From Limnomonas spitsbergensis (lineage: Eukaryota > Chlorophyta > Chlorophyceae > Chlamydomonadales), in assembly GCA_037349105.1 (NCBI GenBank), contig JAYJMM010000123.1, positions 6,820,001-6,884,000 on the forward strand: a stretch of 64,000 nt of DNA. The letters run 5' to 3'. A program made the translations under genes and the position numbers. Numbering within the stretch: the stretch's first letter is position 1; every line of letters starts with the position of its first letter. Of the stretch, positions 13,971 through 63,545 are shown piece by piece. Under the pieces are notes generated by a model. That model saw only the letters and a program-made list of their open reading frames with translations, did not search any database and had not been told where the DNA came from.

Positions 13971-14009
13971 CTGTTTAGTGTCAAGAGCGCCCTTCTTCAG
14001 ACACACACA

Positions 14010-14240: not shown

Positions 14241-14369
14241 CACTCCACCATGAACTCCACACCAGAATGTGAAGTGGCATATGGATAGAATTATCCTCAC
14301 GCCACCCCAAATTGAGCCAGGCAGCTCGTGCTCACGCCCCCCCCCCCCCCCCCTCTCCCACCCCACCCC

Positions 14370-14795: not shown

Positions 14796-14803
14796 TTCCC
14801 TGG

Positions 14804-16080: not shown

Positions 16081-16109
16081 CGACACATACCGTGCTTGGA
16101 TGTATAAGC

Positions 16110-16188
16110 CATATCATTGCCATATCATTGCCATATCATTGCCATATCATTGCCATATCATTGCCATATCATTGCCATATCATTGCCA
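16110..16188 (+). repeat. 11-bp tandem repeat
   Basis: Seven copies of CATATCATTGC in a row, followed by a C-run. Confidence 0.9.
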
Positions 16189-16544
16189 TGACCCCCCCCC
16201 CTCCCAGGCTGAATCCACTCAAAGTCTTTCTAATGACTCCTGGATTTAGCTGCCTCCTAGGCAGAATATAACAGATTAGTCGGCAGGGTCATGGGCAAAA
16301 CCCTAGGGCAGCCCGGCATCGGCCACCGGGCCACACGGAGCTGATCGGCTGCCGTTCTCATGAATGGCCGGGGGACGCCACACCAAGATAAACAACCTTG
16401 TGGGAACCTGCCCTGGACAAATGTGACTCATCTAAGAAAGGAATGCAGCTTGGCCCCATGCATCTCATGTGCCCCATGCACACGGCCCTATGCATGCCTT
16501 GCCACCACACATTTTCCATGAGGTCCTGATGTGATGATAGTGCT

Positions 16545-17808: not shown

Positions 17809-17809
17809 C

Positions 17810-18150
17810 ATATTGTGTGAGATGTGTATGATACATGCCCCCTGAATCCTCCCTGCTTGCCCCTCCCCATAACCCCACCCCTAACCACCAATATTATACC
17901 TGCCAGTGTTGTTGATGCTGCTGCTGGCACTAGGGGCTCCGCTATGTGTCTCAAGGCGGGCCTGACATATGGGGCATGATCTGCAGGGGGTGGGGAGGCG
18001 TCCGCCCCTTCTCGCCGAAGGAGCACCTGCGCGCTTAGCTCGGGAGCTGGCTAACGCTTTTATGATTCTTATATTTGCCCGTGGGGCATAACATCCGGGC
18101 GCAAGTCTGCCCAGTTCCTGCGGGGTGAGCAGCCCTCCTTTTCAATCAAC
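17810..18150. repeat. Dispersed repeat, copy 2
   Basis: Diverged partner of 14370-14795, starting immediately after the LINE-like tail at 17808. The order of shared blocks is conserved. Confidence 0.6.
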
Positions 18151-20790: not shown

Positions 20791-23700
20791 ATGGCCACAC
20801 TTCTCACACTTCGAAAGGGACCGTTTTTACCACGTCACACGCGCATGCAGACTTGTAATCAGCGAGACGGGGTGCAGCCAGGAGGATCAATGATGGACAA
20901 GTCACCTAAACTTCCGAAGAAGGCAGTCCCCGGGACTGTCACTCTCGGCTTCAGAAGTATCATCCCGATGTCGACCGTTCTGTGAGCGCTATTTGAATGA
21001 CACAAAGTATTGCTGGTAGCTTGGTTTGGGAGGAATCGATGCCCACGTTCATCATCATTGCACAGGACCGGCATATTGTCCTTCCTAATCTGCGCGTACA
21101 TGCTCTGTGACAATGTGAACGTCGGTGACCCGGTGCTGGAGGCGGAGTACCTCGCGGAAACTCATCCAGAAACATATGGGTGGCCCATGGTGGCATTCGG
21201 CACCGCTTTCAGCCTAAACTTCTTAACGCTGGCGTTCGAGCGCGACTCTGCTAAGATGCAGCTCGCGCTGTTTGCATGTGTGAGTGTCTAATCCTAACTC
21301 GTGCGATGATGTCATTGCTGCTGCATCCAGTCTGCCCTGCCCAAAGTGCGCCATGGACCTATCCAGCCCTGCTGCCTCCTGACCCCCCTTACCTGCTGCC
21401 CTGCAGTACATTAATTTCCTAGCGAGCTTCAATGACTGGCTGTCATGGACAGGACGGGCACCCGTCATCCGGGATGTGTGGGGCGAAGGCCTCCAGATCA
21501 TGCGCGGTCTGATGTGGCTGCACACGACCCCCGCCATGGTGAGAAATCATGCATGGCAGCAGTCATGCATGCGGGCGAGCACTTGGGCCCATGTGGCTCC
21601 ACACAAGAACCCGCCATGGTATGCAGCAGCAGACAGCTTGCAGGCTCATGTAGCTGCATATGACACCCGCCATGGTGAGAAAACATGCATGGCCGTAGTC
21701 ATGCGTGTGGGGTCATTAAGCTGCCTACAGGCAGCCATGTCAGTGTGTCATACATGGTAGTGAGTCAAGCATGGCAGGGAGTCATGCATTACAGCAGTCA
21801 TGCATTGGGGTGGATGTGGCTGCACCTGCGCAGCGCTGTGGTAGGGGCAGCAGGTAGGCAGGCATGCCGTCCGATGCGCAGTGTCCATTTCCTCGCTACT
21901 CGATTACAGGCCAGCTACAGTACAGCTACCTCCTGGCCCCAAAGCTTAGCCAGCCATGCTGCTTAAGCCCTGGTCTGAAAGCCAGTCAAGGTTTGGCCTC
22001 AATCAGCCACCCAGCTGCTGCTCCGGAAACATAGCAATGTCAGAGGGGCGCGTTGTTGTTGGTCTGGTCGGACGTTAACAGCCGTTGTCCAGACAGCATG
22101 CAGATGCCAGGCAGCATCGTGTAGTCGGCCTTTTGACAGCCGCTGTCCATGCAGCATGCGGGGACCAAGCAGCATGTTGAAGTCACTGGTCAGCCTGAAA
22201 CAGGCGCTGTCTATGCAGCATGCGGAGGCGAGGCAATGCGATGCTTTCATCAGACTGCCGATGGCAGTGGTGCATGGCAGAGGTGCATGCCAGAGGCGCA
22301 TGGCAGTGCTGAGTGGCAGTGGTGCATGACAGTGGTGCATGGCAGCGGTGCATGGCTGAGGCGCATGGCAGTGCTGCATGGCAGAGGCGCATGGCAGAGG
22401 CGCATGGCAGTGCTGCGTGGCAGTGGTGCATGGCAGTGGTGCATGGCAGCGGTGCATGGCTGTTATGCATGGCAGTGCTGCATGGCAGTGGCATTGGCAT
22501 GCCTGATGCCAAGGCATCTGTTTGAATGGTGGTGCATGGCCAGGATCTGGTGCATAGGCCAGGGTGTAGGGTAAATCCTGAACCTGGTGCATAGGCCAGG
22601 GTTTAGGGTAAACCGTGAACCTGGTGCATATGCCAGGGTTTAGGGTAAACCCTGAAAACGTTGCACAGGCCAGGGTTTAGGGTAAACCCTGAACCTGGTG
22701 CACATGCCAGGGTTTAGGTTAAACCCTGAACATGGTGCACAGGCCAGGGTTTAGGATAAACCCTGAAAATGTTGCACAGGCCAGGGTTTAGGTTAAACCC
22801 TGAACATGGTGCACAGGCCAGGTTTTGGCGGACACCCTTTACCTGGTGCATGGGCCAGTAGCCGTCTGTATTATTCGATTGTTGTTGCACGACCAGGTCA
22901 AGGATGCACGAAACTATGTGCATAATCTTATAGAGGAGTGACACTTCCATGGACGACCCTGTGTATCTGGCTGAGGGCGCAACGACCATTCCAGGGCCCA
23001 CTGAACTCTCTTATGGTGTCGGTGACGCGCAACGACCATCCCAGCGCCCACTGAACCTTCGCTTGGTGTCGATGACTATGGTGACGGCACTTGGTGACGA
23101 CACTGCCGCGCTCTCAGCGCCCAATGGATTTTCTGATGGTGTCGGTGACTGTGGTGACGACACTCACACCGCCGCGCTCTCATCTGCAGCGCAGACGCTG
23201 CTGTTTTGGGCGGTTTGGCATTTGGATGGGCATATCCCCATGAGCCAATTTCCCACGAAACAGGCAGACTTGTCTGAGCTACGCAGCATACGCTGAGCAC
23301 TCAGCACCCTTTGGGCAACGATGCCTGCTGTGGAGGCAGTTGTGCGATGATGATTGATTTGGGTGTCGACGGCTGGCCAATCTTGAAGACTATGCTGCGG
23401 TCATTGCGTTGTGGTAACTTCAGCGGTGATTTATGAAACAGCAGGCACGGCTACCTGCCCAGTGGTGTGGGCCGCAATGCCGTTGCTGACACACAGGCAC
23501 GATGCACACATGATAGCAAGGCACCACACAAGTCATCGCTTTCTCTTCATGGGCCCTCCCCGGTCCCCCCTTGCCCTCTTACCTGCCCCCTGACCTCCCC
23601 GCTCTCCCATGACCTCCCACCTAACGCCTTTCAGGTCTATCTTCTCAGCATTTTATCCGACTTCAGCCGTTGGAGGGTGAGTTCCTTCGGCCGGACCAGC

Positions 23701-26700
23701 CAGTAGCAGCTACCTCGGAGCAACCAATCCGTAGGAGCTCTTGGAGGCAACCAACCCGTAGTAGCTCCTGGGGTGAACTGTGTAGCCTCGTTGCCAGCAT
23801 GATGCAGCCGCCCTCACGATCTCTCATTGGAGCCTTCCTTCCTCCCAGCTTTATGCGTTTTGTCTCCGGATCCTGAATGTTTTCCCGGTGGGCATTCAGG
23901 CTCGAAAAAAACTTGACCTTGAACCCCTTAACCTTTGTGACTGCCTCCCGATCCTGAATCCTGTTCTGGCAGGCGTTAGGGTTTAAAGACCTAAGCCTTA
24001 AATCATAAACCTAGTGGCTGCCTGCAGATCCTAACTGCTATTCTGGTGGGCATAAGGGTTAAAATCCTGACCTCTTAACCCTACCCACCTGTGCCCGTCT
24101 GTAGGTCCTAGATTCTGTGCTGGCAGTCATGAGGGTTTAAACCCTCCTTACCCTACAGCCTTAGCCCCTGTGCCTGCCTGCAGATCCCGACTGCTGTTAT
24201 AGTGAGCATAACTGTTAAAACAACCCTCAACCTTGAACCCTTAACCCGTGTGCCTGCCTGCGTATCCTGAATGCTGTCCTGGCAAGCATCATGGTTTGAA
24301 GCCTAGACCCTGTACCTGGGTGGCTGCCTGCAGATCCTGTATGCCGTGTTGGCGGACATTCTGATGCTCGCCTTTGGCATCGGTGCCCAGTTGGCCCCCA
24401 ACATCTCCCTTGCAGGTAAGGCTTAGGTTTCAGGGTTAAGGGTTTAGGTTAAAACCCTTAACCCCCAACATCTCTCTTGCTGGTAGGGTGGGCGCTTGCG
24501 TGCTAGGACGGTCTGGGCGGAGGAACGCTTGTGTGTGCGCGTGTCTGGCGGGTGGGCGTCTGCGCGCTAGGGTGTCTGGTGGTTGGTTGCCTGTGTGTGC
24601 GTCTGTACGGGTCCCTGGGCGGGTGAACGCCTGTGTGTGTAGGTGTGACCTGTGATGGAGTAACATGCGATGGAGTAACATGTGATGGAGTAAAGCTGTG
24701 ATGACGTAACAGGTGATGGAGCGACCTGCGTAAGCGTGACCTGTGGAGGAGTAACCTGTGATGTGGCAGCTATTTTTTCTATATTTAGATTTCTATTTTT
24801 TTACGTTTCTCCCATTAAAGATATTTAATGTGGCAGCTGCATACTTTGATAGGGCGCCACGATAGAGTCCGTGTTCACCTCTTGTAAAGTGGTTGTTGCT
24901 CTCATTGTCCCTGTTGCTTTTGCTCTCGCTTTTGCTGTTGTTTAATCGTTGCTTCTTTTTTAAATGTTGCTCCTGCTGCCGCTGCTGCTGCTGTCCTCAT
25001 TGCTGCTGATGCCCCTCACCCCATGCCTGATCCAGTGATGTGCTACGTCATCTCCACACTCTTCTTCGCGTACGTCGTCAAGGAGATGTGGGCCATGTTT
25101 GATGCGTGAGTCATCAGGGAGCATGTTAGGGTTGAGAGTTTAGGGGTGTGGGGTAATACTTGCCCTAAACCCATGTTTGATGTGTGAGTCCTCAGGTTGC
25201 TTGTTTGGGGTTTAGGGTTTAGCTTACCCTAAACCCATGTTTGATGCGTGATTTATCAGGGTGCTTGTTGTTGCTGTCCTTTGTTTCTGCAACACCTGGA
25301 TTCAGGACCTCGGGTTCGAAAAGAACGCTCCGCCGTATTGTGTTTCATTTACCTATCATCAAAGGTTACCTTCAAGCTCTCAAGGGTAATGAAGTAGTGC
25401 TAATCATTGCCGTGACTTGCATGGTGTTTATCTTCACCAAGATTTGCATGGCGTTTATCTTCACCAAGATTTGCATGGTGTTTATCTTCACGAAGATTTG
25501 CATGGTGTTTATCTTCACCAAGATTTGCATGGCGTTTATCTTCACCAAGATTTGCATGGTGTTTATCTTCACCAACATTTGCATGGTGTTTATCTTCACC
25601 AAGATTTGCATGGTGTTTATATTCACCAAGATTTGCATGGCGTTTATCTTCACCAAGATTTGCATGGTGTTTATCTTCACCAAGATTTGCATGGTGTTTA
25701 TCTTCACCAAGATTTGCATGGCGTTTATGTTCACCACGATTTGTATGGCGTTTTTTCTTCGCCAGAATCCGTATGGCATTTATCTTTACCGGGATTTGAA
25801 TGCCGTGAATCTTCACCGTGAATTGCATGGCGTTTACCTACACTGTGTATTGCATGGTCAAAGCAGTACGGCATGGTGGAGCGCTCTTCCCTGCTATCCT
25901 GTCATAGTCAGTGTGGCAGGGAGGGTGGGGAGGGGGGTCATTTCCGATGGAAAGAGGACCACTAAGCGGACTATTGATCTTCCCCTCCCGTTAGCCATTG
26001 TTCCTGCCCCTGTGGCGATCCTTTCCCCCCACTGTATGGTTGCTCCTGCAGAAAGACGACCATTGATCTTCTCCTCCCGTCAGCCATTGTTCCTGCCTTT
26101 GTGGCGATATCCTGTCTCCCCACTGCATGGTTGCTCCCGCACCTCGAGGCGCGCATCGACAGCAGCAGGCAAACCCTTAACCCTACCCCTCCCACTGTAT
26201 GGCTCCCGCAGCTCCCTGGCAGAGGCGCGTGTCGACAGCAGCAGGCAAACCCTTAAACCTACCCCTCCCACTGTATGGTTGCTCCCGCAGCTCCCTGACA
26301 GAGGCGCGCATGGACAGCAGCAGGCAAACCTTTAACCCTACCCCTCCCACTGTATGGTTGCTCCCGCAGCTCCCTGACTGAGGCGCGCATCGACAGCAGC
26401 AGGCAAACCCTTAACCCTACCCCTCCCACTGTATGGTTGCTCCCGCAGCTCCCTGGCAGAGGCGCGCATCGACAGCAGCAGGCAAACCCTAAACCCTACC
26501 CCTCCCACTGTATGGTTGCTCCCGCAGCTCCCTGGCAGAGGCGCGTGTCGACAGCAGCAGGCAAATCCTTAACCCTACCCCTCCCACTGTATGGCTCCCG
26601 CAGCTCCCTGGCAGAGGCGCGTGTCGACAGCAGCAGGCAAACCCTTAACCCTACCCCTCCCACTGTATGGTTGCTCCTGCAGCTCCCTGACAGAGGCGCG

Positions 26701-29700
26701 CATGGACAGCAGCTGGCAAACCTTTAACCCTACCCCTCCCACTGTATGGTTGCTCCCGCAGCTCCCTGGCAGAGGCGCGTGTCGACAGCAGCAGGCAAAC
26801 CCTTAACCCTACCCCTCCCACTGTATGGTTGCTCCCGCAGCTCCCTGGCAGAGGCGCGCGTCGACAGCAGCAGGCAAAGCCTCATGGTGCTGCGGGGTCT
26901 GGCGGTGGTGAGTCGCAGGAGATGAACCCTAACACCTAAACCCTTTACCCAAACCCTAAAGCGTTGAGCCTGGGATCTCGTTTCTCCCTGGCTCTGGCCT
27001 TCTCTTTGGAGTGCCTCTGGCACTGGCCTTCCCTGGGCCTGCTGCTTGGCCCATGGGCTTCTCGACCCGGCAAGCCAGCCTTATGAGCCCAGGTCTGGGC
27101 CGTTTGCTTCCCCCCGTCTCATCCTGCCCTTCCCCCCTTCACGTCAGTGGGGTGGCCCACTCCCCCATGCTCATCTTGCGTTTTTTCACGCGCTGGGCCT
27201 GTGGTTTTTGATCTCGGTATTATGTGTGATGATCCAGCGCTCCTCACAGACTCACACACACAGGGCCTGTGGTTCTTATTCGCAGTATTTCTGTTACTTA
27301 ATGCAGAGCCAGTGGTTCTCATTCTCAGTATCTGTTTAAATTCCCAATGCTCCTCTCAAACACTTGGGGTCTGTGGTTCTTATTCAAAGTGTATATGTGA
27401 ATTTATCCATTGTTCCTCACACACCAACGAGGCCTTTGGTTCTCGTTCCCGGCGTTATTTGTGATAAGCCAGCGCTTCTCACAGTCTTGAAGGTGCATGG
27501 CCAGTGCTTCTCATTCTAAGTATATGTTTCATCATCCTGTGCTTCTCTCACATGCATGGCCTTTGGTTCTCGTTCCCAGTGCTATTTGTGATGACCAAGT
27601 GCTCCTGACAGTGACATATGCCATGCCTGTGGTACTGCACATATTCCCAATATTATACATGATGATCCTTTTCCCGGTCCCCTGCAGGGCCTTTGGTTCT
27701 CCTTCCCATTGCTATTTGTTTAGTGATCATGTGCCCCTTTCACATGCAGGGCCTTTGGTTCTCCTTCCCGGTGCTATTTGTTTAGTGATCATGTGCCCCT
27801 TTCACATGCAGGGCCTTTGGTTCTCCTTCCCGGTGCTATTTGTTTAGTGATCATGTGCCCCTTTCACATGCAGGGCCTTTGGTTCTCCTTCCCGGTGCTA
27901 TTTGTTTAGTGATCATGTGCCCCTTTCACATGCAGGGCCTTTGGTTCTCCTTCCCGGTGCTATTTGTTTAGTGATCATGTGCCCCTTTCACATGCAGGGC
28001 CTTTGGTTCTCCTTCCCGGTGCTATTTGTTTAGTGATCATGTGCCCCTTTCACATGCAGGGCCTTTGGTTCTCCTTCCCGGTGCTATTTGTTTAGTGATC
28101 ATGTGCCCCTTTCACATGCAGGGCCTTTGGTTCTCCTTCCCGGTTCTATTTGTTTAGTGATCATGTGCCCCTTTCACATGCAGGGCCTTTGGTTCTCCTT
28201 CCCGGTGCTATTTGTTTAGTGATCATGTGCCCCTTTCACATGCAGGGCCTTTGGTTCTCCTTCCCGGTTCTATTTGTTTAGTGATCATGTGCCCCTTTCA
28301 CATGCAGGGCCTTTGGTTCTCCTTCCCGGTGCTATTTGTTTAGTGATCATGTGCCCCTTTCACATGCAGGGCCTTTGGTTCTCCTTCACGGTGCTATTTG
28401 TTTAGTGATCATGTGCCCCTTCCACATGCAGGGCCTTTGGTTCTCCTTCCCGGTTCTATTTGTTTAGTGATCATGTGCCCCTTCCACATGCAGGGCCTTT
28501 GGTTCTCCTTCCTGGTGCTATTTGTTTAGTGATCATGTGCCCCTTTCACATGCAGGGCCTTTGGTTCTCCTTCCCGGTACTATTTGTTTAGTGATCATGT
28601 GCCCCTTTCACATGCAGGGCCTTTGGTTCTCCTTCCCGGTGCTATTTGTTTAGTGATCATGTGCCCCTTTCACATGCAGGGCCTTTGGTTCTCCTTCCCG
28701 GTGCTATTTGTTTAGTGATCATGTGCCCCTTTCACATGCAGGGCCTTTGGTTCTCCTTCCCGGTGCTATTTGTTTAGTGATCATGTGCCCCTTTCACATG
28801 CAGGGCCTTTGGTTCTCCTTCACGGTGCTCTTTGTTTAGTGATCATGTGCCCCTTCCACATGCAGGGCCTTTGGTTCTCCTTCCCGGTTCTATTTGTTTA
28901 GTGATCATGTGCCCCTTCCACATGCAGGGCCTTTGGTTCTCCTTCCTGGTGCTATTTGTTTAGTGATCATGTGCCCCTTTCACATGCAGGGCCTTTGGTT
29001 CTCCTTCCCGGTGCTATTTGTTTAGTGATCATGTGCCCCTTTCACATGCAGGGCCTTTGGTTCTCCTTCACGGTGCTATTTGTTTAGTGATCATGTGCCC
29101 CTTCCACATGCAGGGCCTTTGGTTCTCCTTCCCGGTTCTATTTGTTTAGTGATCATGTGCCCCTTTCACATGCAGGGCCTTTGGTTCTCCTTCCCAGTGG
29201 TATTTGTTTAGTGATCATGTGCCCCTTTCACATGCAGGGCCTTTGGTTCTCCTTCCCGGTGCTATTTGTTGAGTGATCATGTGCCCCTTTCACATGCAGG
29301 GCCTTTGGTTCTCCTTCCCGGTGCTATTTGTTTAGTGATCATGTGCCCCTTTCACATGCAGGGCCTTTGGTTCTCCTTCCCGGTGCTATTTGTTTAGTGA
29401 TCATGTGCCCCTTTCACATGCAGGGCCTTTGGTTCTCCTTCCCGGTGCTATTTGTTTAGTGATCATGTGCCCCTTTCACATGCAGGGCCTTTGGTTCTCC
29501 TTCCCGGTTCTATTTGTTTAGTGATCATGTGCCCCTTTCACATGCAGGGCCTTTGGTTCTCCTTCCCGGTGCTATTTGTTTAGTGATCATGTGCCCCTTT
29601 CACATGCAGGGCCTTTGGTTCTCCTTCCCGGTTCTATTTGTTTAGTGATCATGTGCCCCTTTCACATGCAGGGCCTTTGGTTCTCCTTCCCGGTGCTATT

Positions 29701-53700: not shown

Positions 53701-56700
53701 CGTTTATGAGGATGGCCAGAAGGCATCGTTCATGAGGATGGCCAGAAGGCATCGTTCATGAGGATGGCCAGAAGGCATCGTTCATGAGGATGGCCAGAAG
53801 GCATCGTTTATGAGGATGGCCAGAAGGCATCGTTTATGAGGATGGCCAGAAGGCATCGTTCATGAGGATGGCCAGAAGGCATCGTTTATGAGGATGGCCA
53901 GAAGGCATCGTTTATGGGGATGGCCAGAAGGCATCGTTTATGAGGATGGCCAGAAGGCATCGTTTATGAGGATGGCCAGAAGGCATCGTTCATGAGGATG
54001 GCCAGAAGGCATCGTTTATGAGGATGGCCAGAAGGCATCGTTTATGAGGATGGCCAGAAGGCATCGTTTATGAGGATGGCCAGAAGGCATCGTTTATGAG
54101 GATGGCCAGAAGGCATCGTTTATGAGGATGGCCAGAAGGCATCGTTCATGAGGATGGCCAGAAGGCATCGTTTATGAGGATGGCCAGAAGGCATCGTTTA
54201 TGGGGATGGCCAGAAGGCATCGTTTATGAGGATGGCCAGAAGGCATCGTTTATGAGGATGGCCAGAAGGCATCGTTTATGAGGATGGCCAGAAGGCATCG
54301 TTTATGAGGATGGCCAGAAGGCATCATTTATGAGGATGGCCAGAAGGCATCGTTTATGGGGATGGCCAGAAGGCATCGTTTATGGGGATGGCCAGAAGGC
54401 ATCGTTTATGGGGATGGCCAGAAGGCATCGTTTATGGGGATGGCCAGAAGGCATCGTTTATGAGGATGGCCAGAAGGCATCGTTCATGAGGATGGCCAGA
54501 AGGCATCGTTTATGGGGATGGCCAGAAGGCATCGTTTATGGGGATGGCCAGAAGGCATCGTTTATGGGGATGGCCAGAAGGCATCGTTTATGGGGATGGC
54601 CAGAAGGCATCGTTTATGGGGATGGCCAGAAGGCATCGTTTATGAGGATGGCCAGAAGGCATCGTTTATGAGGATGGCCAGAAGGCATCGTTTATGAGGA
54701 TGGCCAGAAGGCATCGTTTATGGGGATGGCCAGAAGGCATCGTTTATGAGGATGGCCAGAAGGCATCGTTTATGAGGATGGCCAGAAGGCATCGTTTATG
54801 GGGATGGCCAGAAGGCATCGTTTATGAGGATGGCCAGAAGGCATCGTTTATGAGGATGGCCAGAAGGCATCGTTTATGAGGATGGCCAGAAGGCATCGTT
54901 TATGGGGATGGCCAGAAGGCATCGTTCATGAGGATGGCCAGAAGGCATCGTTTATGAGGATGGCCAGAAGGCATCGTTTATGAGGATGGCCAGAAGGCAT
55001 CGTTTTTGGGCGCCACCCTACAAATTTAGCTTTGGGCTGCTCCGCCTGGATCCTGGCACCCTGATGCCGCTGTACACTTTGATACTCTTTCTGCCAGCTC
55101 ATGATGACGTATACTTTCCGGACGCCAATATACTGCCCCCTGCCTAACACTGCCTCCCTGCTGCCGCTGCCCCCTGCTGCCGCTGCCCCCTTGCTGCACA
55201 TTTTCTCTGATGATGTGAACCTTTTGGACGCCAACGCACTGCCCCCTTCTCGACACTTCCTCCCTGCTGCCACTGCCCCCTGCTCTCACTGTCTCCTGGG
55301 TACCACTGTACCACTGGGTACCACTGGGTACCCCTATACCCCTGAGACTCTCTCTGCTACGCCCTTCAAGCCATATAATTTCCGGACGCCAACATGCTGC
55401 CCCTTGATGCCCCTGCTGTGCACCCTGAAATATCCTCTTGTCAGGTCTTGCAAGCCATTCGAATAGCAAGGAAATTTCCCACGCGGTTTTTTTAAAACGT
55501 GGAGGGGAGAGGGGGAGGGGGGGTGCTGTTGAGACAGGGTCTTGATGCTGACACGGTGAACCCTGTATCTCTTCATACCAGGCCTTTTGCAAGCCATATG
55601 GATGGCCAAGGAGCATCCCTCACGGTTCCACACACACATGGGCAGGGGGATGGACTATTGTAACTGCGTCTCGCCGCTGACTCTGTAGACCCTGCATCTT
55701 CTTTCTGCTAGGTACTGCAAGCCATGCGGATTGGCCAGGGAGCCCCCGACGGTTTCACATATGAAGAGGGGGGGGGACTATTGTAACTGCGTCTCGCCGC
55801 TGACTGGTTGGACCCTGTATCTTCCTTCTGCTAGGTCTTGCAAGCCATGGATGGCCAGGAGGCGTTGGACCTGTTGGCTTCTGAGGATCAGCTGCCGGAC
55901 ATCATCCTTCTAGATGTGATGATGCCGGGGATGAGCGGATATGAGGTACGAGGGGATCAGCGATTGTGAGGGATGGTTTCGGGATGTTTGTGTAAGGAGA
56001 TAAGCGGTGAGGGTTGAGGGGGTGAGGGATTGTTGTGTGAGGGGATCAGGGGATGAGCGGATATGAGGTACGAGGGGATGTGCGATTGTGAGAGATGGTT
56101 GAATGAGGGGATGAGGGGTTACAATGGATGAGGGGATGAGGGGTTACAATGTCTCAATGTATGACTGTACAAGGGTTTGTCCTGAACCTGTTCGTTTAAA
56201 CCCTGCACACAAACTTCTCACTTTCCCTGGAATATCTCGTCCACACCTCAGGTCCACCTCAAGATCCAAGAGCCCTACCCTCTTGTTTTACACTTGTCCT
56301 GAACCCGTCCCCTAAAACCTGAACACAAAATCCACACTTTCCTGCACTATCTCGTCCACACCTCAGGTCCACCGCAATATCCATGAGCTGTGTCCTTCTA
56401 TTGCACACTTGTTCGGAACCTTTTCCCCTAAATCCTTAACACATACTCCACACTGTTCCCACACTTTCGTGTCCACACTTTAGGTATGCCGCAAGATACA
56501 CGAGCTCTATCCTCAAAACTGTCCGCCCGTCCTCATGGTCAGCGCCAAAAGCAAGGAGGAGAACATTGTGGAGGGGTTGCTGGCTGGTAGTAATGATTAC
56601 CTGGTGAAGCCCTTCGGCAGGTGAGGGGGGAGCTGGAGAGAGGGGAGGGGAGGAGGGGGGGCAGGCCAATCGGCGTTGACCAAAAAGATGTATAAAAGCA

Positions 56701-59700
56701 GGCGAGGGAGATGTATGCAGTTATGCACCCTGCTGCTATTGAAGCAAGCAATGTGGATCAGGCTTTTTGTTCTGCCTGTCACCGAGCCTGTCAGACCAAG
56801 TAAGTTTGTGGGAAGAAAAGTGTAGAAATGATCTTTGAGGGAGGAAGGATCATGTTTTTCTCGCACCTGTAATCTTCAACATCCGTCTTTTCCACACATC
56901 CTTCACATTTCTGAAGGCAAACACAGTGTCCGCACATACCCCACTCTGTCAGGCAGGAGTGCCTCGCTCGCACCTTTCAGCACATCTGCCTCTTTCCACA
57001 CCTCCTTCATACTTGTTACAACAAACTAACTTTTTTCACACCTCCTCCATGCTGCAAGGCAGGAGATCTTTGCTCGCATCCTAGCACATCTGCCTCTTTC
57101 CACACCTCCTTCATACCGTACTTGTTATAACACAATATTGTGTCCACACTTTCTCCACGCGGCCAGGCAGGAGATCCTCGCTCACATTCAGGCACACCTG
57201 CGTTTTCTTGCTCCCACGCCTCCTCCACACTCCTGGGGAAAGGAGTTTGTTGCATGCATCCACCTTTTCACCAGTCTTCACACTTCCCCCCCCCACACAC
57301 ACATCTCCTTCACGCAGCCAGGCAGGAGATACTCAGTCCGCATCCAAGCACACCTGCCTCTTTCCACACTTCCTTCATAATTGTTCCGACAAACAATTTT
57401 TTCCCACACCTCCTCCGCGCTGGCAGGCAGGAGATCCTTGCTCGCATCCAAGCACACCTGCGCTTCAGAGACATGGTCTTCAAGGCAGGAGAGATGTCGG
57501 GTGAGACACTGGGAATGACACGAGGGAAGGGTGCGCCTAACCCTAAGGATTCGAGAAGAGTCACAAAGGATTGGAAACCATAACTAGTTATTACTTCTTA
57601 CTAGGAGGGGGGGAGGGGGGGGGGGGGCAAGGGACAAAGGCTGGTGTGGTGGACATGGGGGAGGGGATCCCTTCTCACCCCCCTCTTTCCCCCTCCTCGA
57701 CCTGCACAGCCAATACCCGAGACGCCTGGGAGGGGAGCTCCTCCTTCCCTGACTTTGACTCTTTAACCCCACCCCTGCTCTCACATTTGTTTCACCGCCT
57801 CAGCTCATTCCCTCCCCCCTTATCCCTCTCCCTCCTCCCCCCCTCGCCTGCACAGCCAATACCCGCAGAGACGCCTTGGTAGGGAGCTCCTCCTCCCTCG
57901 CCTTTGACTCCTTAAACCCATCCCTACTCTCATATTTGTTTCACCTCCCTCAGCTCATTCTTCCCCCCCTTACCCCTCCCCCCCCCCCCCCTCCTCGCCT
58001 GCACAGCCAATACCCGCAGGGACGCCTTAAAGGGGAGCTCCGAGCTGTCCCAGCTGTGCCTGTTTGGTCAGGGGGATGAAGACGACATCAGCGTGCCCTT
58101 CAGCACATTCTGACCCCCCCCTTCCCCCTCTCGCCCTTCTTGCCTACACAGCCAATACCTGCAGGGGAGACTGGAGTGGAGCTCCTCCTCCCCTGACTTT
58201 GACTCCTCAACCCCGCTCTTGCTCTCACATTCCCTCCCCTCCCTTCCCCCCCTCTTCGCTTACACAGCCAATACCCGCAGGGACGCCCTTGAGTGGAGTT
58301 TCTCCTCCCTCTCCTTCGACTCCTGAATACCACTCCTGCTCTCATATTTGTTTTAAGCCCTAAGCTCATTTCCTCCCCCCTCCCTTCCCCATCCCCCTCT
58401 TTGCCCTCGCCTGCACAGCCAATACCCGCAGAGACGCCCTAGAGGGGAGCTCCTCCCTCTCCTTCAGCTCCTTAACCCCACCCCTGCTCTCACATTCCCT
58501 ACCTCCCCTCCCCCCCCATCCTCACCTGCACAGCCAATACCCGCAGAGACGCCTTAGAGGGGAGCTCCGAGCTGTCCCAGTTGTGCCTGGTTGGACAGGG
58601 GGAGGAGGGCAGCATCGGCGTGCCCTTCAGCCTGCCGCCGGACGTCAAGTTGGATATGGAGCACGGCAAGGCATCCACGATGCAGGTAAGCCAGGTGCCG
58701 CATTCCTCCTAGCAGTAGCAGTGGCAGCAGTTGCGGGCGGTGGTAGCAGTTGCAGTCATAGGCAGCAACAGCAGTAGCAGTAGTTGCAGGCAGTGGTAGC
58801 AGCTGCAGTCATAGGCAGTAACAGCAGTAGCAGCAGTTTCGGACAGTGGCAGCAGTTGCAGTCATAGGCAGTAACAACAGTAGCAGCAGTTGCGGGCAGT
58901 GGTAGCAGTTGCAGTCATAGGCAGCAACAGCAGTAGCAGCAGTTGCAGGCAGTGGTAGCAGTTGCAGTCATAGGCAGTAACAGCAGTAGCAGCAGTTGCA
59001 GGCAGTGGTAGCAGTTGCAGTGATAGGCAGTAACAGCAGTAGCAGCAGTTGCAGGCAGTGGTAGCAGCTGCAGTCATAGGCAGCAACAGCAGTAGCAGCA
59101 GTTGCAGGCAGTGGTAGCAGTTGCAGTCATAGGCAGTAACAGCAGTAGCAGCAGTTGCAGGCAGTGGTAGCAGTTGCAGTCATAGGCAGTAACAGCAGTA
59201 GCAGCAGTTGCGGGCAGTGGTAGCAGTTGCAGTCATAGGCAGCAACAGCAGTAGCAGCAGTTGCGGGCAGTGGCAGCAGTTGCAGTCATAGGCAGCAACA
59301 GCAGTAGCAGCAGTTGCGGGCAGTGGTAGCAGTTGCAGTCATAGGCAGCAACAGCAGTAGCAGCAGTTGCAGGCAGAGGTAGCAGTTGCAGTCATAGGCA
59401 GTAACAGCAGTAGCAGCAGTTGCGGGCAGTGGTAGCAGTTGCAGTCATAGGCAGTAACAGCAGTAGCAGCAGTTGCGGGCAGTGGCAGCAGTTGCAGTCA
59501 TAGGCAGCAACAGCAGTAGCAGCAGTTGCGGGCTGTGGCAGCAGTTGCAGTCATAGGCAGTAACAACAGTAGCAGCAGTTGCGGGCAGTGGCAGCAGTTG
59601 CAGTCATAGGCAGCAACAGCAGTAGCAGCAGTTGCGGGCAGTGGTAGCAGTTGCAGTCATAGGCAGCAACAGCAGTAGCAGCAGTTGCAGGCAGTGGTAG

Positions 59701-62610
59701 CAGTTGCAGTCATAGGCAGTAACAGCAGTAGCAGCAGTTGCGGGCAGTGGCAGCAGTTGCAGTCATAGGCAGTAACAGCAGTAGCAGCAGTTGCAGGCAG
59801 TGGTAGCAGTTGCAGTCATAGGCAGTAACAGCAGTAGCAGCAGTTGCGGGCAGTGGCAGCAGTTGCAGTCATAGGCAGTAACAGCAGTAGCAGCAGTTGC
59901 GGGCAGTGGCAGCAGTTGCAGTCATAGGCAGTAACAACAGTAGCAGCAGTTGCGGGCAGTGGTAGCAGTTGCAGTCATAGGCAGTAACAACAGTAGCAGC
60001 AGTTGCGGGCAGTGGCAGCAGTTGCAGTCATAGGCAGTAACAACAGTAGCAGCAGTTGCGGGCAGTGGCAGCAGTTGCAGTCATAGGCAGTAACAACAGT
60101 AGCAGCAGTTGCGGGCAGTGGCAGCAGTTGCAGTCATAGGCAGTATCAACAGTAGCAGCAGTTGCGGGCAGTAGCAGCAGTTGCAGTCATAGGCAGTAAC
60201 AACAGTAGCAGCAGTTGCGGGCAGTGGCAGCAGTTGCAGTCATAGGCAGTAACAACAGTAGCAGCAGTTGCGGGCAGTGGCAGCAGTTGCAGTCATAGGC
60301 AGTAACAACAGTAGCAGCAGTTGCGGGCAGTGGCAGCAGTTGCAGTCATAGGCAGTAACAACAGTAGCAGCAGTTGCGGGCAGTAGCTGTAAGTCGGACA
60401 TGGAGCACGGCAAAGCATCCATGATGCCGGTGAGCCAGATGAAGTGCTTCTTACCTCCTAGCGGTAGCAGTGGCAGTAGCAGGGGGGGTTGGGGGCAGTA
60501 GCAGCAGTTGCGGGCAGTAGCAGTAAGTCGGACATGCAGCACGGCAAGGCATCCACAATGCAGGTGAGCCGGTTGCAGGTGCCGCATGCCTCCTAGCGGT
60601 AGCAGTGGCAGTAGCAGGGGGGGTTGGGGGCAGTAGCAGCAGTTGCAGGCAGGAGCAGTAAGTCGGACATGGAGCACGGCAAGGCATTAATGATGCAGGT
60701 GAGCCGGTTGCATGGGCCGCATGCCTCCTAGCGGTAGCAGTCTGTACAGGCAGCAGGAAGCGGCAGTTGCAGGCAGTAGCAGTTGCAGGCAGTAGCAACA
60801 GCAGGAGCACTTGCGGGCAGTAGGCAGTATAAAGCGGCAGTTGCGGGCAGTAGTTAGTAGGATTCAACGTGCTTGAAGGTGCCGCATGCCTCCTAGCGGT
60901 GACAGCAACAGCAAGTCGGACAGGGAGCACTACAAGGCTTCCATGATGCAGGTGAGTCTGGTGCAGGCGCTCGTCCTAGCAGTAGCAGTAACAGTAGCAG
61001 CAGTTGCGGGCAGTAGCAGCAGTTGCAGGCAGTAGCAGCAGTTGCGGGCAGTAGCAGCAGTTGCGGGCAGTAGCAGCAGTTGCGGGCAGTAGCAGCAGTT
61101 GCGGGCAGTAGCAGCCTTTGCAGTCACAGGCAGTAACAGTTACAGGCATCCATGCTGCAGGTGAGCCTGGCGCAGGTGCCGCATGCCCCTAACGGTATTT
61201 ACTGGCAGCAGGGAGCGGCAGCTTGCGGGCAGTAGCAGTTGCAGGCAGTAGCAACAGCAGGAGCACTTGCAGGCAGCAGGGAGCGGCAGCTTGCGGGCAG
61301 TAGCAGTTGCAGGCAGTAGCAACAGCAGGAGCACTTGCAGGCAGCAGGGAGCGGCAGCTTGCGGGCAGTAGCAGTTGCAGGCAGTAGCAACAGCAGGAGC
61401 ACTTGCAGGCAGCAGGGAGCGCAGCTTGCGGGCAGTAGGCGCAGCATGAGCAGCAGTAGAGGTAGCAAGGATCAGTGTGTTCTTATTTATTATTATTATT
61501 TTGGGGGCTGTGTTTGCACCTTTAGCAGGCACCTCCGCTGTTGACAAAGGCCCGATTGGGACCAAATCTGGACTGGCATTCAGCTGGTGGCAGAAGCGGC
61601 ATGGCTGGCCACAAAAATGGGGTGTCCAGCCAGAGACCGGGGTGTAGCTGTCGTGTAGCTGATGTGTAGCATGACAGATGTGTGCAGCGGTTTGGCTGTT
61701 GCGGCAGTCCCATTAGCTTGCTCTTGGAAACTACCTGCACGTGTGTATGCGTGTTTGTGTGTGTATGTAATTGTGTGTGTGTGTATGTGTGCGTGTGTGT
61801 GTGTATGCCTTTACTTGCAGATGTTTGAGAAGGCCACGATGGCGGTGAAATGTGTTTGCTACATCACGGAACTTCCTGCCAAGATGTCGGCGGCGCATTC
61901 TGCTTGCGCTTGGCACGACCCACAAGCATGAATGCATGTGTGTCTGTGTGTGTGTGTTTTGCAGATGTTTGAGAAGGCCACGCTGGCAGTGATACGAGTT
62001 TGCAACATAGCGGAGCTCTCCGCCAAGATGTCGGCGGCGCACTTGGCCATCATGCTCGCACAGTGGGTTTGGGTTAAGGGCTTAGGGTTCAGGGTTTTCT
62101 ATGAGGGCCTGTGCAGTTGGCCAGCTTGCTCGCACAGTGGGTTTAGGGTTTCGGTTTAAGCAATGAGGGCCTTTCAGTGGCAATTGGAATTAAGTTTTTG
62201 GTTACCAGAGGAGTCATTATCTGGTTGACAAACAATTAGTCTCTGGTAAATTTTCCCGATCCGAATTGATTTGGGCTCATTTGTTTCTACGCAACTGACC
62301 TTGGCTCAGCTAAGCTTAATTGTTCGGTCACCACTTCGGATTTGCCTCGTTACTAGTAACCACTAACCAACTAACCGACAAAAAAAAAACTGGTGACTCT
62401 CCGTGGATTGCTCATCCTGCCACCTGTGATACTGGTTTTGCTCTGACTGGCCTTCCTTCCCTCCCGCCCTCCCTCCCTTTTGCTCTGACTCGCCCTCCCT
62501 CCCTTTTGTGTGTCAACACAGCCTGCACGCGTTTGTTGATGAACAGCTCTCGGCCCTCGATGATGCGCATGTGATCCTGGGAATGGATGGAAGGTTGATG
62601 GTTGCAACAG
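20791..62610 (+). CDS. HKR: Histidine-kinase rhodopsin (opsin, kinase, receiver, cyclase), 22 exons, 3' end outside the window
   Basis: A modular photoreceptor: light absorbed by retinal in a microbial-type opsin should control a histidine kinase that phosphorylates a receiver domain, which then acts on a cyclase domain. Exons, all with GT donors and AG acceptors: 20791-20981, 21066-21279, 21407-21538, 23635-23676, 24334-24415, 25036-25105, 26841-26907, 32646-32745, 33825-33921, 35443-35683, 36277-36354, 37281-37436, 39451-39537, 40941-41081, 41818-41915, 49934-50234, 55835-55945, 56484-56620, 57427-57500, 58534-58685, 61965-62062, 62522-62610. All 21 junctions keep one frame, giving about 919 codons. 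Start 20791 is the first ATG after an in-frame stop; ATG at 20890 or 20893 is an alternative. The last exon ends in phase 1, so the rest of the cyclase lies beyond 64000. Same architecture as chlorophyte HKR/two-component cyclase opsins. The architecture is secure; exon 15 and exon 22 boundaries are the least certain. Confidence 0.9.
21539..23634 (+). repeat. HKR intron 3: exon 3 donor copies and GCATGG-rich arrays
   Basis: Just after the donor, decayed copies of the exon 3 end plus splice site (GTGGCTCCACACAAGAACCC/GCCATGGT near 21592, then GACACCCGCCATGGTGAGAA near 21661) repeat the true boundary at 21510-21545. At 22260-22500 lies a 12-13 bp array of GCATGGCAGTGGT-like units. At 22555-22840 there are about eight units of a roughly 38-bp repeat containing the palindrome GGGTTTAGGGTAAACCC. 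The remainder to 23634 is unique sequence with no further exon seen. Confidence 0.75.
23677..24333 (+). repeat. HKR intron 4: six decayed copies of the exon 5 acceptor edge
   Basis: From about 23870 a degenerate repeat of roughly 75-85 bp carries CAGATCCTGAATGCTGT and CTGGCGGGCAT-like strings, each a diverged copy of the true exon 5 start (CAGATCCTGTATGCCGTGTT GGCGGACATT at 24331). Spacers contain AACCCTTAACC-type, telomere-like text. Copies are strongly diverged, so this array is old. Confidence 0.7.
24416..25035 (+). repeat. HKR intron 5: one exon 5 donor copy and a 16-bp array
   Basis: CCCAACATCTCTCTTGCTGG near 24465 repeats the exon 5 end and donor (24397-24420). A degenerate array of GTGATGGAGTAACATG units occupies 24650-24770. 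Confidence 0.7.
25106..26840 (+). repeat. HKR intron 6: donor copies, 27-bp array and eight exon 7 acceptor copies
   Basis: Two copies of ATGTTTGATGYGTGAGTC/TGATTTATC-like text (about 25175 and 25235) repeat the exon 6 end and donor. At 25415-25770 are about 13 copies of a 27-bp unit with TTGCATGGTGTTTATCTTCA, open in several frames because 27 is a multiple of three. From 26212 eight copies of a 79-bp unit each contain the exon 7 acceptor and first 36 coding bases (GCTCCCGCAG, then CTCCCTGGCAGAGGCGCG), beginning at 26212, 26291, 26370, 26449, 26528, 26604, 26683 and 26762, ahead of the true exon at 26841. Confidence 0.9.
26908..32645 (+). repeat. HKR intron 7: about 80-copy, 62-bp array of the exon 8 acceptor edge
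   Basis: From 27688 to the true exon at 32646 the same 62-bp unit recurs, (32646-27688)/62 being 80. Each unit carries the whole 3' splice-site context (GTGCCCCTTTCACATGCAG) and the first 30 or so bases of exon 8 (GGCCTTTGGTTCTCCTTCCC), then TTTGTTTAGTG. Using a decoy acceptor would read [11 protein letters not shown] and stop. Before 27688 (27190-27680) eight or so older, strongly diverged units precede the homogeneous block. The array splits helix F from its N-terminal part in exon 7. Confidence 0.95.
32746..33824 (+). repeat. HKR intron 8: 23-bp G-rich array and three copies of the retinal-lysine exon edge
   Basis: Immediately after the donor come about 33 copies of a 23-bp unit, GGGGCAGCTGGGGCAGGTCA plus TCT (32752-33530). 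All three frames stay open because the unit contains no stop. Then copies of exon 9's acceptor and first 45 or so bases begin at 33571, 33656 and 33740 (spacing 85, 84, 85 to the true exon at 33825). Each starts GCAAGGTGATG, so each contains a copy of the K301 codon, and each reaches TAA or TGA after about 15 codons. Confidence 0.95.
33922..35442 (+). repeat. HKR intron 9: short C-rich array and exon 10 acceptor copies
   Basis: At 34055-34180 a roughly 16-bp unit, CACCCCTCCATGCGTC, is repeated about nine times. Exon 10 acceptor copies begin at 35104, 35220 and 35328, with a weaker trace near 34985. The 35104 copy reads ATTCAGGAGCTGAAAGACCT as in the exon but then has TAG. The 35328 copy skips an internal part and reaches the H-box codons TCCCACGAGCTGCGC, so one decoy includes the phospho-acceptor histidine. 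Confidence 0.85.
35684..36276 (+). repeat. HKR intron 10: exon 10 donor copies and 34-bp array related to the exon 11 acceptor
   Basis: GCCATGCGCAGG and GCCATGCGCAGCGTGCGTGCC at about 35708 and 35746 repeat the exon 10 end and donor. From about 35800 some 14 copies of a 34-bp unit, TTTCCTCCCATGCGCATGCC plus AAGATTAATATCTC, run up to the true acceptor TTTCCTCCCATGCGCAG at 36260-36276, whose context the unit shares. Confidence 0.85.
36355..37280 (+). repeat. HKR intron 11: eight copies of the exon 12 acceptor edge at exactly 98 bp
   Basis: One copy of the exon 11 end and donor (CAGCCCCTGGTAAGATGTG) follows at 36390-36428. Copies of exon 12 then start at about 36497 and at 36595, 36693, 36791, 36889, 36987, 37085 and 37183, before the true exon at 37281. 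Each has CTGTTCAG plus 52-53 coding bases (GCCAAGCGCGGTGTGAAGCT on) and then switches to intronic GGGTACAACCTCAACCCC. A decoy read-through ends at TGA in the next unit. Confidence 0.95.
37437..39450 (+). repeat. HKR intron 12: 99-bp and 33-bp arrays
   Basis: Starting at the donor itself, about 11 copies of a 99-bp unit begin GTGAGAGGGGCTAGGTTGCG, so every unit repeats the intronic half of the 5' splice site. A duplicated block of about 150 bp (CTCGCAATTAACGT) lies at 38600-38980. At 39070-39430 about 11 copies of a 33-bp unit, CTGACCTGGTGCTGACTCAG, lead to the exon 13 acceptor. The long minus-strand Pro/Ser/His ORFs here are artefacts of 99 = 33x3. Confidence 0.9.
39538..40940 (+). repeat. 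HKR intron 13: 55-bp array and exon 14 acceptor copy
   Basis: About 20 copies of a 55-bp unit with GGTAAGAGGCATGAAGGTGC and TTTGCGCAGGTGTGTAGGGG (39550-40635); the unit contains both a CAG acceptor-like and a GTGTGT donor-like string back to back. Near 40855 AGGTGGACATGAGCGTTACT repeats the true exon 14 start (GTGGACATGAGCGCTACACG). Confidence 0.9.
41082..41817 (+). repeat. HKR intron 14: copies of the exon 14 donor edge
   Basis: About seven decayed copies of GGGGTCGGGACCACGTTCAC...CTTCTTAAGGTGGGA follow the true boundary at 41050-41090 at intervals of roughly 50-65 bp, up to about 41480. Near the acceptor, GCATGCACCTTGAACAGATA occurs at about 41717 and again at the true site, 41801-41820. 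Confidence 0.85.
41818..50234 (+). other. HKR: HKR exons 15-16: linker and start of receiver domain
   Basis: Exon 15 (32 codons, in the frame that reads [20 protein letters not shown]) is assigned by frame, splice sites and fit to both neighbours; it has no domain and is the least secure exon. Exon 16 encodes a disordered, Pro/Ser/Asn/Ala-rich linker ([20 protein letters not shown] and on), then the first strand and helix of a receiver, [15 protein letters not shown]. The acidic pair D680-D681 are the usual Mg2+-binding residues. The two exons are separated by an 8.0-kb intron. Confidence 0.8.
41916..49933 (+). repeat. HKR intron 15: about 190-copy, 39-bp minisatellite
   Basis: A partial copy of the exon 15 end (GCCCACACTCTCGTAGGCGG) lies at 42007. 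From about 42440 to 49840 the 39-bp unit GATGGTGGAAGGGTGTGTCG plus ACAGAAGGGTGTGGATTAG repeats about 190 times. Single-base variants (TCG/TTG, GAC/GGC, ATTAGG/ATAAGG, GTGTGG/GTTTGG) recur in blocks, suggesting later duplication of multi-unit segments. Between 46440 and 47035 units carry many one-base insertions and deletions not seen elsewhere. Giant ORFs of 700-1170 codons on both strands come from the 39 = 13x3 unit and are not genes. Confidence 0.95.
50235..55834 (+). repeat. HKR intron 16: donor copies, about 156-copy 26-bp array, exon 17 acceptor copies
   Basis: From 50235 to about 50650 a dozen copies of GGCTATAAGGTGGGT-like text (GGGCTACAAGGTGGGGGCAG and variants) repeat the exon 16 end and donor. 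From about 50930 to 55000 a 26-bp unit, GATGGCCAGAAGGCATCGTT plus TATGAG, recurs about 156 times. At about 55447, 55572 and 55707 text like GCAAGCCATATGGATGGCCA repeats the exon 17 start (TTGCAAGCCATGGATGGCCA, 55838-55857), each with a CTAG or CCAG-type acceptor upstream. The satellite core GATGGCCAG is itself part of that exon edge. Confidence 0.9.
55946..56483 (+). repeat. HKR intron 17: donor and acceptor edge copies
   Basis: GATGAGCGGATATGAGGTAC at about 56051 copies the exon 17 end and donor (55930-55950). At about 56252 and 56368 CACCTCAGGTCCACCGCAAT-like text copies the exon 18 start (ACTTTAGGTATGCCGCAAGA, 56478-56497). Confidence 0.8.
56621..57426 (+). repeat. HKR intron 18: four acceptor copies of exon 19
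   Basis: GGCAGGAGATCCTCGCTCAC-like text at about 56950, 57059, 57165 and 57318 copies the exon 19 start (GCAGGAGATCCTTGCTCGCA at 57427), each with CAGGCACACCTGCG-like codons following and pyrimidine-rich text before. Confidence 0.85.
57501..58533 (+). repeat. HKR intron 19: six acceptor copies of exon 20, one of them long
   Basis: Copies of CACAG plus CCAATACCCGCAGAGACGCC begin at 57710, 57856, 58007, 58152, 58268 and 58419; the true exon starts at 58534. Most keep only about 40 coding bases. The copy at 58007-58113 keeps about 105 and stays in frame with conservative changes before a TGA. Confidence 0.9.
58534..58685 (+). other. HKR: HKR exon 20: receiver-cyclase linker
   Basis: A 50-codon linker ([19 protein letters not shown], a Gly/Glu-rich turn, then [19 protein letters not shown]). 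Acceptor and donor are both duplicated in the neighbouring introns. No domain is recognisable; its place between receiver and cyclase suits a signal-transmitting segment. Confidence 0.8.
58686..61964 (+). repeat. HKR intron 20: 53-bp array, five exon 20 donor copies and one near-complete exon 21 copy
   Basis: At 58745-60390 about 31 copies of a 53-bp CAG-rich unit (GGCAGTAACAGCAGTAGCAG, TTGCGGGCAGTGGCAGCAGT). Near 60396, 60530, 60664, 60913 and 61140 text like GGAGCACGGCAAGGCATCCA plus ATGCAGGTGAGCC copies the exon 20 end and donor (58656-58692). At 61821-61905 there is a diverged copy of exon 21 with its own TTACTTGCAG acceptor. Confidence 0.9.
61965..62610 (+). other. HKR: HKR exons 21-22: N-terminal part of a degenerate class III cyclase domain
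   Basis: [18 protein letters not shown] aligns with the first strand of class III nucleotide cyclases, where the usual text is V-T-x-x-F-(A/S)-D-I-x-G-F-T-x-L-S. The metal-binding Asp is replaced by R868. Exon 22 then gives [17 protein letters not shown] and [11 protein letters not shown], aligning with the family's L-N-x-L-x-x-x-F-D helix and I-G-D-A-Y-M-x-V-x-G strand; the second metal Asp aligns with Gly. The fold assignment rests on hydrophobic pattern and position after the receiver, and the substitutions suggest no catalysis. The distal half is outside the window. Confidence 0.55.
62063..62521 (+). repeat. HKR intron 21: one donor copy
   Basis: GCTCGCACAGTGGGTTTAGG near 62128 copies the exon 21 end and donor at 62055-62072. 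The rest is unique, ending in a C/T-rich tract and CAACACAG acceptor. Confidence 0.7.
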
Positions 62611-63545
62611 GTGGGGTGGTTGGAAGAGTGGTTGCTGCAACATGTGGGGTGGATAAAAGAGTGATGGTTGCAACATGTGGGGTGGTTGGAAGAGTGGTTG
62701 TTGCAACAGGGGGGGGGGGGGGTGATGAGAGAGTGATGGTTGCAACATGTGGGGTGGTTGGAAGTTTGATGGTTGCAACAGGTGGGGTGGTTGGAAGAGT
62801 GGTTGCTGCAACATGTGGGGTGGATAAAAGAGTGATGGTTGCAACATGTGGGGTGGTTGGAAGAGTGGTTGTTGCAACAGGGGGGGGGGGGGTGATGAGA
62901 GAGTGATGGTTGCAACATGTGGTGTGGTTGGAAGAGTGATGCTTGCAACAGGTGGGGTTGTTGGAAGTGGTTGTTGCAACATGTGGGGTGGTCGGAAGAG
63001 TGGTGGTTGCAACAGGTGGGGTGGTTGGAAGAGTGGCGGTTGCAACAGGTGGGGTGGTTGGAAGAGCGATGGTTGCAACAGGTGGGGTGGTTGGAAGAGT
63101 GATGGTTGCAACAGGCGGGGTTGTTGGAAGAGTGATGGTTGCAACATGTGGGGTGGTTAGAAGGTTGATGGTTGCAACAGGTGGGGTTGTTGGAAGAGTG
63201 TTTGTTGCAACATGTGGGGTGGTCGGAAGAGTGGTGGTGCAACAGGTGGGGTGGTTGGAAGATTGGTGGTTGCAACAGGTGGGGTTGTTGGAAGAGTGAT
63301 GGTTGCAACAGGTGGGGTGGTTGGAAGAGTGATGGTTGCAACAGGTGGGGTGGTTGGAAGAGTGATGGTTGCAACAGGTGGGGTGGTTGGAAGAGTGATG
63401 GTTGCAACATGTGGGGTGGTTGGAAGAGTGGTTGTTGCAACAGGTGGGGTTGTTGGAAGATTGATGGTTGCAACAGGTGGGGTGGTTGGAAGAGTGGTGG
63501 TTGCAACAGATGGGGTGGTTGGAAGAGTGATGGTTGCAACACATG
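62611..63545 (+). repeat. HKR intron 22: about 29-copy, 33-bp array of the exon 22 donor edge
   Basis: Each unit reads GATGGTTGCAACAGGTGGGG plus TGGTTGGAAGAGT, that is, the last coding bases of exon 22 (GTTGCAACAG) with the donor GTGGGG. The array begins directly at the true donor 62611. Minus-strand ORFs of 250-376 codons inside it are artefacts of the 33-bp period. Confidence 0.9.

Follow-up and report, generated by a model that had tools for sequence, protein, structure and literature searches.

How an intron can come to carry copies of the edge of its neighbouring exon, complete with splice site, and how splicing may then find the true site among them, are the questions raised by a stretch of 64,000 nucleotides (hereafter the window) from Limnomonas spitsbergensis.

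The predicted host gene and the copies of its exon edges

The published genome of this Arctic snow alga is described as comprising 260.248 Mb in 124 contigs with a GC content of 54.15% (PMC11228838, in the text available); the assembly holding the window has 260,226,709 bases in 124 contigs, and the GC content of the window is about 0.43-0.58 per 2 kb. The window holds most of one gene:

20890..62610, + strand: predicted histidine-kinase-rhodopsin gene with 21 exons placed (E1-E14 and E16-E22), running off the window

The exons were placed by homology to a partial Haematococcus lacustris protein (P0001), by tblastn and by splice consensus, with 20 complete introns and one that leaves the window; the model is a prediction from sequence only, whose least certain parts are E1 and the start of E16. 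P0001 is the closest protein found (49% identity over 90% of the draft protein), and the joined translation of 871 aa unites Bac_rhodopsin, HisKA, HATPase_c and Response_reg domains (Pfam) in one protein, as expected of a histidine kinase rhodopsin. As for a C-terminal cyclase domain, Pfam gave no match within the 871 aa, the gene continues beyond the window, and the segment of P0001 that follows the receiver domain has a weak alignment to E21 (32%, E 0.76). No exon 15 with consistent splice sites could be placed, so that the exon numbers above 14 in the sequence-only reading of this DNA may be offset from those used here; a candidate small exon 15 of 13 aa lies at 41500-41570 and resembles by eye P0001 after the ATPase domain. 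Upstream of the gene, a 446-bp unit containing 30-bp repeats is present 3.7 times at 9113-10761, and a phage search of positions 1-20000 of the window gave no match.

Two tests for copies of exon edges were applied. In test 1, exon-only edge probes of 36 nt were aligned locally in the adjacent intron, the controls being 200 dinucleotide shuffles and all non-adjacent exon edges; every control was beaten by 18 of 40 edges, in 15 of 20 introns, and exon edges gave no match above shuffle level in non-adjacent introns. In test 2, an ungapped scan with the 30-nt exon edge at ≥70% identity, 158 copies were found at 11 acceptor and 8 donor edges (19 of 41), in 15 of the 20 complete introns and in the partial one after E22, letter-shuffled probes of the same 19 edges giving means of 0.00-0.02; the scan found no copy at the remaining 22 edges, including all of those flanking introns 1 (84 bp) and 2 (127 bp). 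Introns of this gene do contain copies of neighbouring exon edges: with both tests united, copies of adjacent edges are present in 16 of the 20 complete introns, or in 17 of 21 with the partial one, in line with the earlier claim of at least 17 of 22. The copies are distributed as follows:

21539..23634, + strand: intron 3, single copy of the E3 3' edge, with GT at 21645 (both tests)
24416..25035, + strand: intron 5, copy of the E5 3' edge with GT (both tests)
26136..26840, + strand: 79-bp array, 9 copies of the E7 5' edge, 8 with AG (repeat finding and test 2)
27196..32645, + strand: 62-bp array, 83 copies of the E8 5' edge, 78 with AG (repeat finding and test 2)
33560..33824, + strand: 85-bp array, 3 copies of the E9 5' edge, 3/3 with AG
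35099..35442, + strand: repeat of ~115 bp, 2 copies of the E10 5' edge with AG (test 2)
36355..37280, + strand: intron 11, one perfect copy of the E11 3' edge with GT, then 8 copies of the E12 5' edge, 7 with AG
37436..38567, + strand: 99-bp array starting at the E12 donor, its unit with one exon base
40855..40940, + strand: copy of the E14 5' edge with AG (paralogs A and B have copies of their own)
41094..41470, + strand: 41-bp array, 7 copies of the E14 3' edge, 3 with GT
55946..56483, + strand: intron 16, one copy of the E17 3' edge (GT), then two of the E18 5' edge (AG) (test 2)
57059..57426, + strand: two copies of the E19 5' edge, 2/2 with AG (test 2)
57856..58533, + strand: four copies of the E20 5' edge, 4/4 with AG, one covering much of the exon
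60400..60951, + strand: four copies of the E20 3' edge, 4/4 with GT, none scoring more than one bit below the true donor
61821..61964, + strand: copy of the E21 5' edge with AG, covering most of the exon
62063..62521, + strand: intron 20, copy of the E21 3' edge with GT (both tests)
62584..63541, + strand: 33-bp array, 26 copies of the E22 3' edge, 21 with GT

The E12 edge copies of intron 11 are spaced by 98 bp; the donor-side arrays of E12 and E13 start at the donor or 36 nt after it and contain at most one exon base, or none detectable; the long copies at E20 and E21 span most of the exon and, by eye, stop short of its donor. If the exon numbers of the sequence-only reading are taken as the present ones, 12 of the 13 acceptor edges that it named hold (5 and 17 by one test only), the exception being that of exon 15, which could not be placed, while 8 of its 11 donor edges stand, those of exons 6 and 10 being weak (perfect matches of 12-13 nt, equalled by 1 and 2 of 200 shuffles) and that of exon 16 unsupported. 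Its further statement that periods differ between introns agrees with the lengths of the repeat units.

The AG or GT is retained exactly at the copied junction in 141 of the 158 copies, and 121 of these 141 score no more than one bit below the true site, by a strength matrix built from kinesin sites of the same genome only (41 donors and 43 acceptors), which were themselves picked with the window-gene matrix, so that the two matrices are not fully independent. The best copies found in test 2 span 21/30 to 30/30 identity, a graded divergence that is to be expected if the duplication process continues. The extreme case is intron 7, where the 62-bp unit joins the final 30 nt of the intron to the opening 32 nt of exon 8 and is repeated ~80 times over 5 kb, the exact copy numbers of this and other kilobase arrays being uncertain and dependent on the assembly. 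Of the 78 E8 copies with AG, 76 fall at most one bit short of the true acceptor, and any of the 78, if used, would bring an in-frame stop into the message; intron 7 would thus present about 79 near-equivalent acceptors, of which, as predicted from the reading frame, the last alone yields protein. Tandem exon duplication producing mutually exclusive exons was considered and, for the copies at E8, E20 and E21, rejected: those of E8 contain only 32 nt of exon, and the 78 that retain AG all lead to that stop, while the long copies at E20 and E21 do not extend to the donor. The spread of an introner or transposon, which would place the same element in different introns, was likewise rejected in a comparison covering exon-edge probes and repeat units: exon edges match their own intron only, and the repeat units differ.

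Other loci and the origin of the copies

Edge copying is not limited to the window gene, and it is sparser in the other genes sampled. A search of the assembly for kinesin motor exons gave 139 matches, from which 18 loci of at most 7 kb each were taken, picked for compactness and several exon matches before any look at repeats; 67 matches were used, and three matches in these loci carrying two in-frame stops were left out, so that some intron there may conceal an exon piece. Of 134 possible kinesin edges, 99 passed the splice-site and flank thresholds, and 22 of these 99 (11 of 51 acceptor and 11 of 48 donor edges) have at least one copy, against 0.02 expected from letter shuffles, in 9 of the 18 loci, two pairs of which look like near paralogs and are not fully independent; the splice dinucleotide is retained in 35 of the 51 kinesin copies. 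Over all sources, 30 of 66 introns carry an edge copy: 15/20 in the window gene, 4/5 in paralog A, 1/10 in paralog B and 10/31 in the kinesins, the paralog counts taking in only introns with clear splice sites.

The two histidine-kinase-rhodopsin paralogs are found at 6.94 Mb of C123 and 3.44 Mb of C28, and their matches break at many shared exon ends; the former (C123:6943126-6943362, minus strand) lies on the same contig as the window gene in opposite orientation, ~88 kb away from exon 10 to exon 10. Paralog B has little of the effect (1 of 20 edges copied). The E14 acceptor copies of the three genes fit their own exon best (45/52/43, against 25-32 to the other paralogs), as do the E22 copies of two genes (44 and 35 against 26 and 20) and, weakly, the E18 copies of three (25-31), so that some duplications appear to be separate events, or to have been homogenised with their own exon; for the paralog copies of E19, E17 and E10, own and other exons are not distinguishable, and these copies are possibly older and of shared ancestry among the paralogs. 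The suggestion of the sequence-only reading that a recurring local tandem duplication, and not one transposon, is at work is supported by the own-intron matches, the differing units and these own-exon matches in the paralogs. Intron 3 (21539-23634) is missing from both paralogs, in which E3 and E4 are contiguous, intron 12 (37437-39450) from paralog A and intron 20 (62063-62521) from paralog B; these absences may reflect either gain or loss.

The reading that we consider probable is that introns grow by undirected local tandem duplication, that the outermost edge is kept by selection, and that the choice among the decoys is made by context, likeliest exon definition. By slippage or unequal exchange, units of tens to ~150 bp would be duplicated locally, regardless of where the junctions lie; a unit that happens to overlap an exon edge would leave a decoy inside the intron, the outermost copy would stay attached to the remaining exon and be kept by selection on the protein, and the inner copies would drift and at times amplify into satellites, splicing still having to use the acceptor copy that comes last and the donor copy that comes first. 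The anatomy of the copies, their recurrence and the roughly flat profile described below are matters of observation; the molecular mutation step and the part played by selection are what we infer from them.

The earlier claim was that duplication is seeded across splice junctions, for which co-transcriptional structures or breaks at exon edges would be conceivable routes, and many edges are indeed affected (19 of 41). In the window gene, 30-mers with a near copy within 1.5 kb make up 0.80 of those in introns, 0.50 of those across junctions and 0.19 of those inside exons (0.19 in the 20 kb upstream, 0.03 in shuffled sequence); followed from intron to exon, the profile is roughly level up to the edge, with no clear peak at the junction, and the duplicated fraction drops within the first ~30 nt of an exon, and over a shorter stretch at exon ends. 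The kinesin profile resembles it at a lower level, again lacking a clear peak and decaying 20-30 nt into the exon; over 52 edges, its acceptors show a small rise at the junction, 0.25 and 0.21 where the value 20-50 nt upstream is 0.13. Copied edges amount to 18/40 (0.45) in the window gene, below the 0.64 of intronic 30-mers, to 5/10 (0.50) against 0.64 and 1/20 (0.05) against 0.09 in the two paralogs, and to 15/62 (0.24) in the kinesin loci, slightly above the 0.21 of introns there. Splice edges are thus copied about as often as ordinary sequence within introns, there is no clear sign that junctions are preferred, and the claim of seeding, which the kinesin edges and their acceptor rise would favour, appears unlikely. 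Undirected duplication, together with selection protecting exon interiors, explains both the profiles and the paired edge and intron rates; it leaves unexplained that, in the window gene, copying reaches further into exons from their starts than from their ends, an asymmetry that speaks against it, as do the small acceptor rise in the kinesins and the weakness of the effect in paralog B.

The retention of AG or GT in 141 of 158 copies, and of strength in 121 of 141, would also be expected if the copies were themselves selected for, as arrays of alternative acceptors and donors regulating expression via alternative splicing or nonsense-mediated decay; we hold this to be quite unlikely, as recent copies would retain AG or GT by descent anyway, kinesin copies retain fewer (35 of 51), and copy numbers and affected edges vary between the paralogs. 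That the introns were born by tandem duplication of exon segments, the exon copies being remnants of the event, could account for the absence of introns 3, 12 and 20 from one or both paralogs and for the match between the end of intron 10 and that of exon 10 (score 20, reached in 0 of 200 letter shuffles), the one hint of such a birth; the match predicted at intron ends is missing at p<0.01 in 19 of 20 introns (intron 9, p=0.03), intron starts match the downstream exon start in 0 of 20, and copies that keep the junction with intron sequence must have arisen once the intron already existed, all of which makes this origin very improbable. The ten letters shared by the end of intron 10 and the near-end of exon 10 (36267-36276 and 35673-35682) are CCATGCGCAG. 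An artefact of assembling long repetitive reads would be conceivable for an assembly made from PacBio continuous long reads, and the copy numbers of kilobase arrays are uncertain; single copies and short arrays occur in many separate loci with graded divergence, and the assembly is reported to have been polished with Illumina reads (PMC11228838, available text), so that we regard an artefact as extremely improbable as the source of the copies.

Splice-site choice and known systems

Correct splicing of the window gene is assumed here from its intact coding exons. As the true site is matched in strength by most decoys, the choice of site must rest on context, and the likeliest context would be exon definition, under which a copied acceptor would lack a donor to pair with at the distance of an exon, and a copied donor would lack an acceptor, an explanation that the following counts support only in part. 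In all 8 introns that carry copies of both types, those of the donor edge come first, 5' of those of the acceptor edge, an order that local duplication must yield, and in these introns there is consequently no copied acceptor followed by a copied donor that would close a false exon. The E8 acceptor array contains 0 strong donors against 13.0 expected; strong donors are absent from 6 of the 8 acceptor arrays in all, the five besides E8 saying little as only 0.1-0.8 were expected, and 3 and 9 strong donor-like sites are present in the acceptor arrays of E9 and E12. Strong acceptors are lacking from two of the four donor arrays, where 2.4 and 1.5 were expected, and occur near expectation in the other two (2 against 1.8 and 6 against 7.5), and in intron 13 a donor lies 40-350 nt downstream of 20 of 21 strong acceptors; the picture for strict shielding by exon definition is therefore mixed. 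We advance only tentatively the broader idea that this alga constantly makes full-strength decoys genome-wide, and that its spliceosome tolerates them by reading sites only as acceptor-donor pairs around an exon; if it were true, intron 7 with its ~79 near-equivalent acceptors would be an extreme natural test of that rule.

The earlier statement that no gene built in this way had been described is contradicted by the 'mirage' minisatellites of amphioxus, tandem duplications of exon-intron boundaries reported in Adh3, in the globins BflGb6 and BflGb9, in troponin C and in PGBD5, for which RT-PCR suggested regular splicing (PMC3087553, PMC3902484, in the passages available, which cite Canestro et al. 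2002 as the original report). The window gene has the same boundary-spanning tandem copies, at acceptor and donor boundaries alike, so that repeats spanning the boundaries at both 5' and 3' exon edges are common to the two systems; in both, many copies, and not all, keep AG or GT (141/158 here, 35/51 in the kinesins), and the units vary in length, between 10 and 160 bp according to the same passages in amphioxus. In these passages the amphioxus cases are reported gene by gene, and units are few (3 or 6) in the globin example, whereas in the alga most introns of one gene are hit, one array has ~80 units and other genes share the phenomenon; the host is moreover a green alga, in which regular splicing is assumed, whereas in amphioxus it was suggested by RT-PCR. 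In the model of Rogers of intron gain by tandem genomic duplication (as outlined in PMC3087553 and PMC3296678), segments with splice motifs are likewise duplicated, but new introns arise from exonic sequence, whereas in the alga existing introns grow; Rogers-type end repeats were looked for and rejected, 0 of 20 intron starts and 1 of 20 ends (intron 10) falling below p=0.01. Internal tandem repeats at boundaries in human segmental-duplication genes also alter gene structure by minisatellite expansion, but they are described as changing exons and possibly forming introns (PMC2812944, available text), whereas in the alga the frame is untouched and the copies are intronic.

A search of the open-licence literature gave no algal or plant report of edge-copy introns, and none at such density; 'mirage' led to the reports on lancelet genes already mentioned (PMC3087553, PMC3902484), and the available text of the repeat section of the genome paper (PMC11228838) makes no mention of exon-edge copies. 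The scale reached in this alga, beyond the amphioxus precedent, may be new. What sets the case apart is this scale, together with the lineage and with a natural experiment where the true site cannot be recognised by its strength; to the old question of how the spliceosome chooses among equals, the genome offers many ready-made cases, and full-length IsoSeq transcripts are reported for L. spitsbergensis (PMC11228838, available text). The copies also point to a plain route of intron lengthening and are a caution for gene predictors working on decoy-rich introns.

Other repeats and telomere-type motifs

Eleven other satellite units were tested for an exon origin against 100 letter shuffles. The 39-bp (42439), 26-bp (50928), 55-, 27-, 37-, 13- and 11-bp units do not exceed the shuffles; the 26-bp unit has 14 of 15 letters in common with E17, yet scores 25 against a shuffle maximum of 26, and the narrow pass of the 53-bp unit against the distant E11 (26 against 24) was taken as chance. 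In intron 10, the 34-bp unit aligns to the E11 acceptor region (46 against 27) and takes in 5 exon bases; the 99-bp unit aligns to the E12 donor (39 against 37), and for the 23-bp unit the match is to intron sequence adjoining E8 only. Two of these satellites are very long, the 39-bp unit being repeated 190 times at 42439-49843 and the 26-bp unit 157 times at 50928-55005, both with no exon origin beyond chance.

Rotations of CCCTAAA/TTTAGGG number 289 + 134 in the 87,174 letters of window and kinesin introns and 4 + 2 in the 14,393 exon letters of the same loci, and in the window introns the CCCTAAA type reaches 1.92 per kb against 0.12 expected. A filling of introns with telomere motifs as the driver of duplication was considered and set aside: CCCTAAA heptamers are present in 19 and absent from 11 of the introns with edge copies, and present in 17 and absent from 19 of the rest (p=0.22). 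At the ends of contigs, TTTAGGG-type repeats were found in two of the six that were read.
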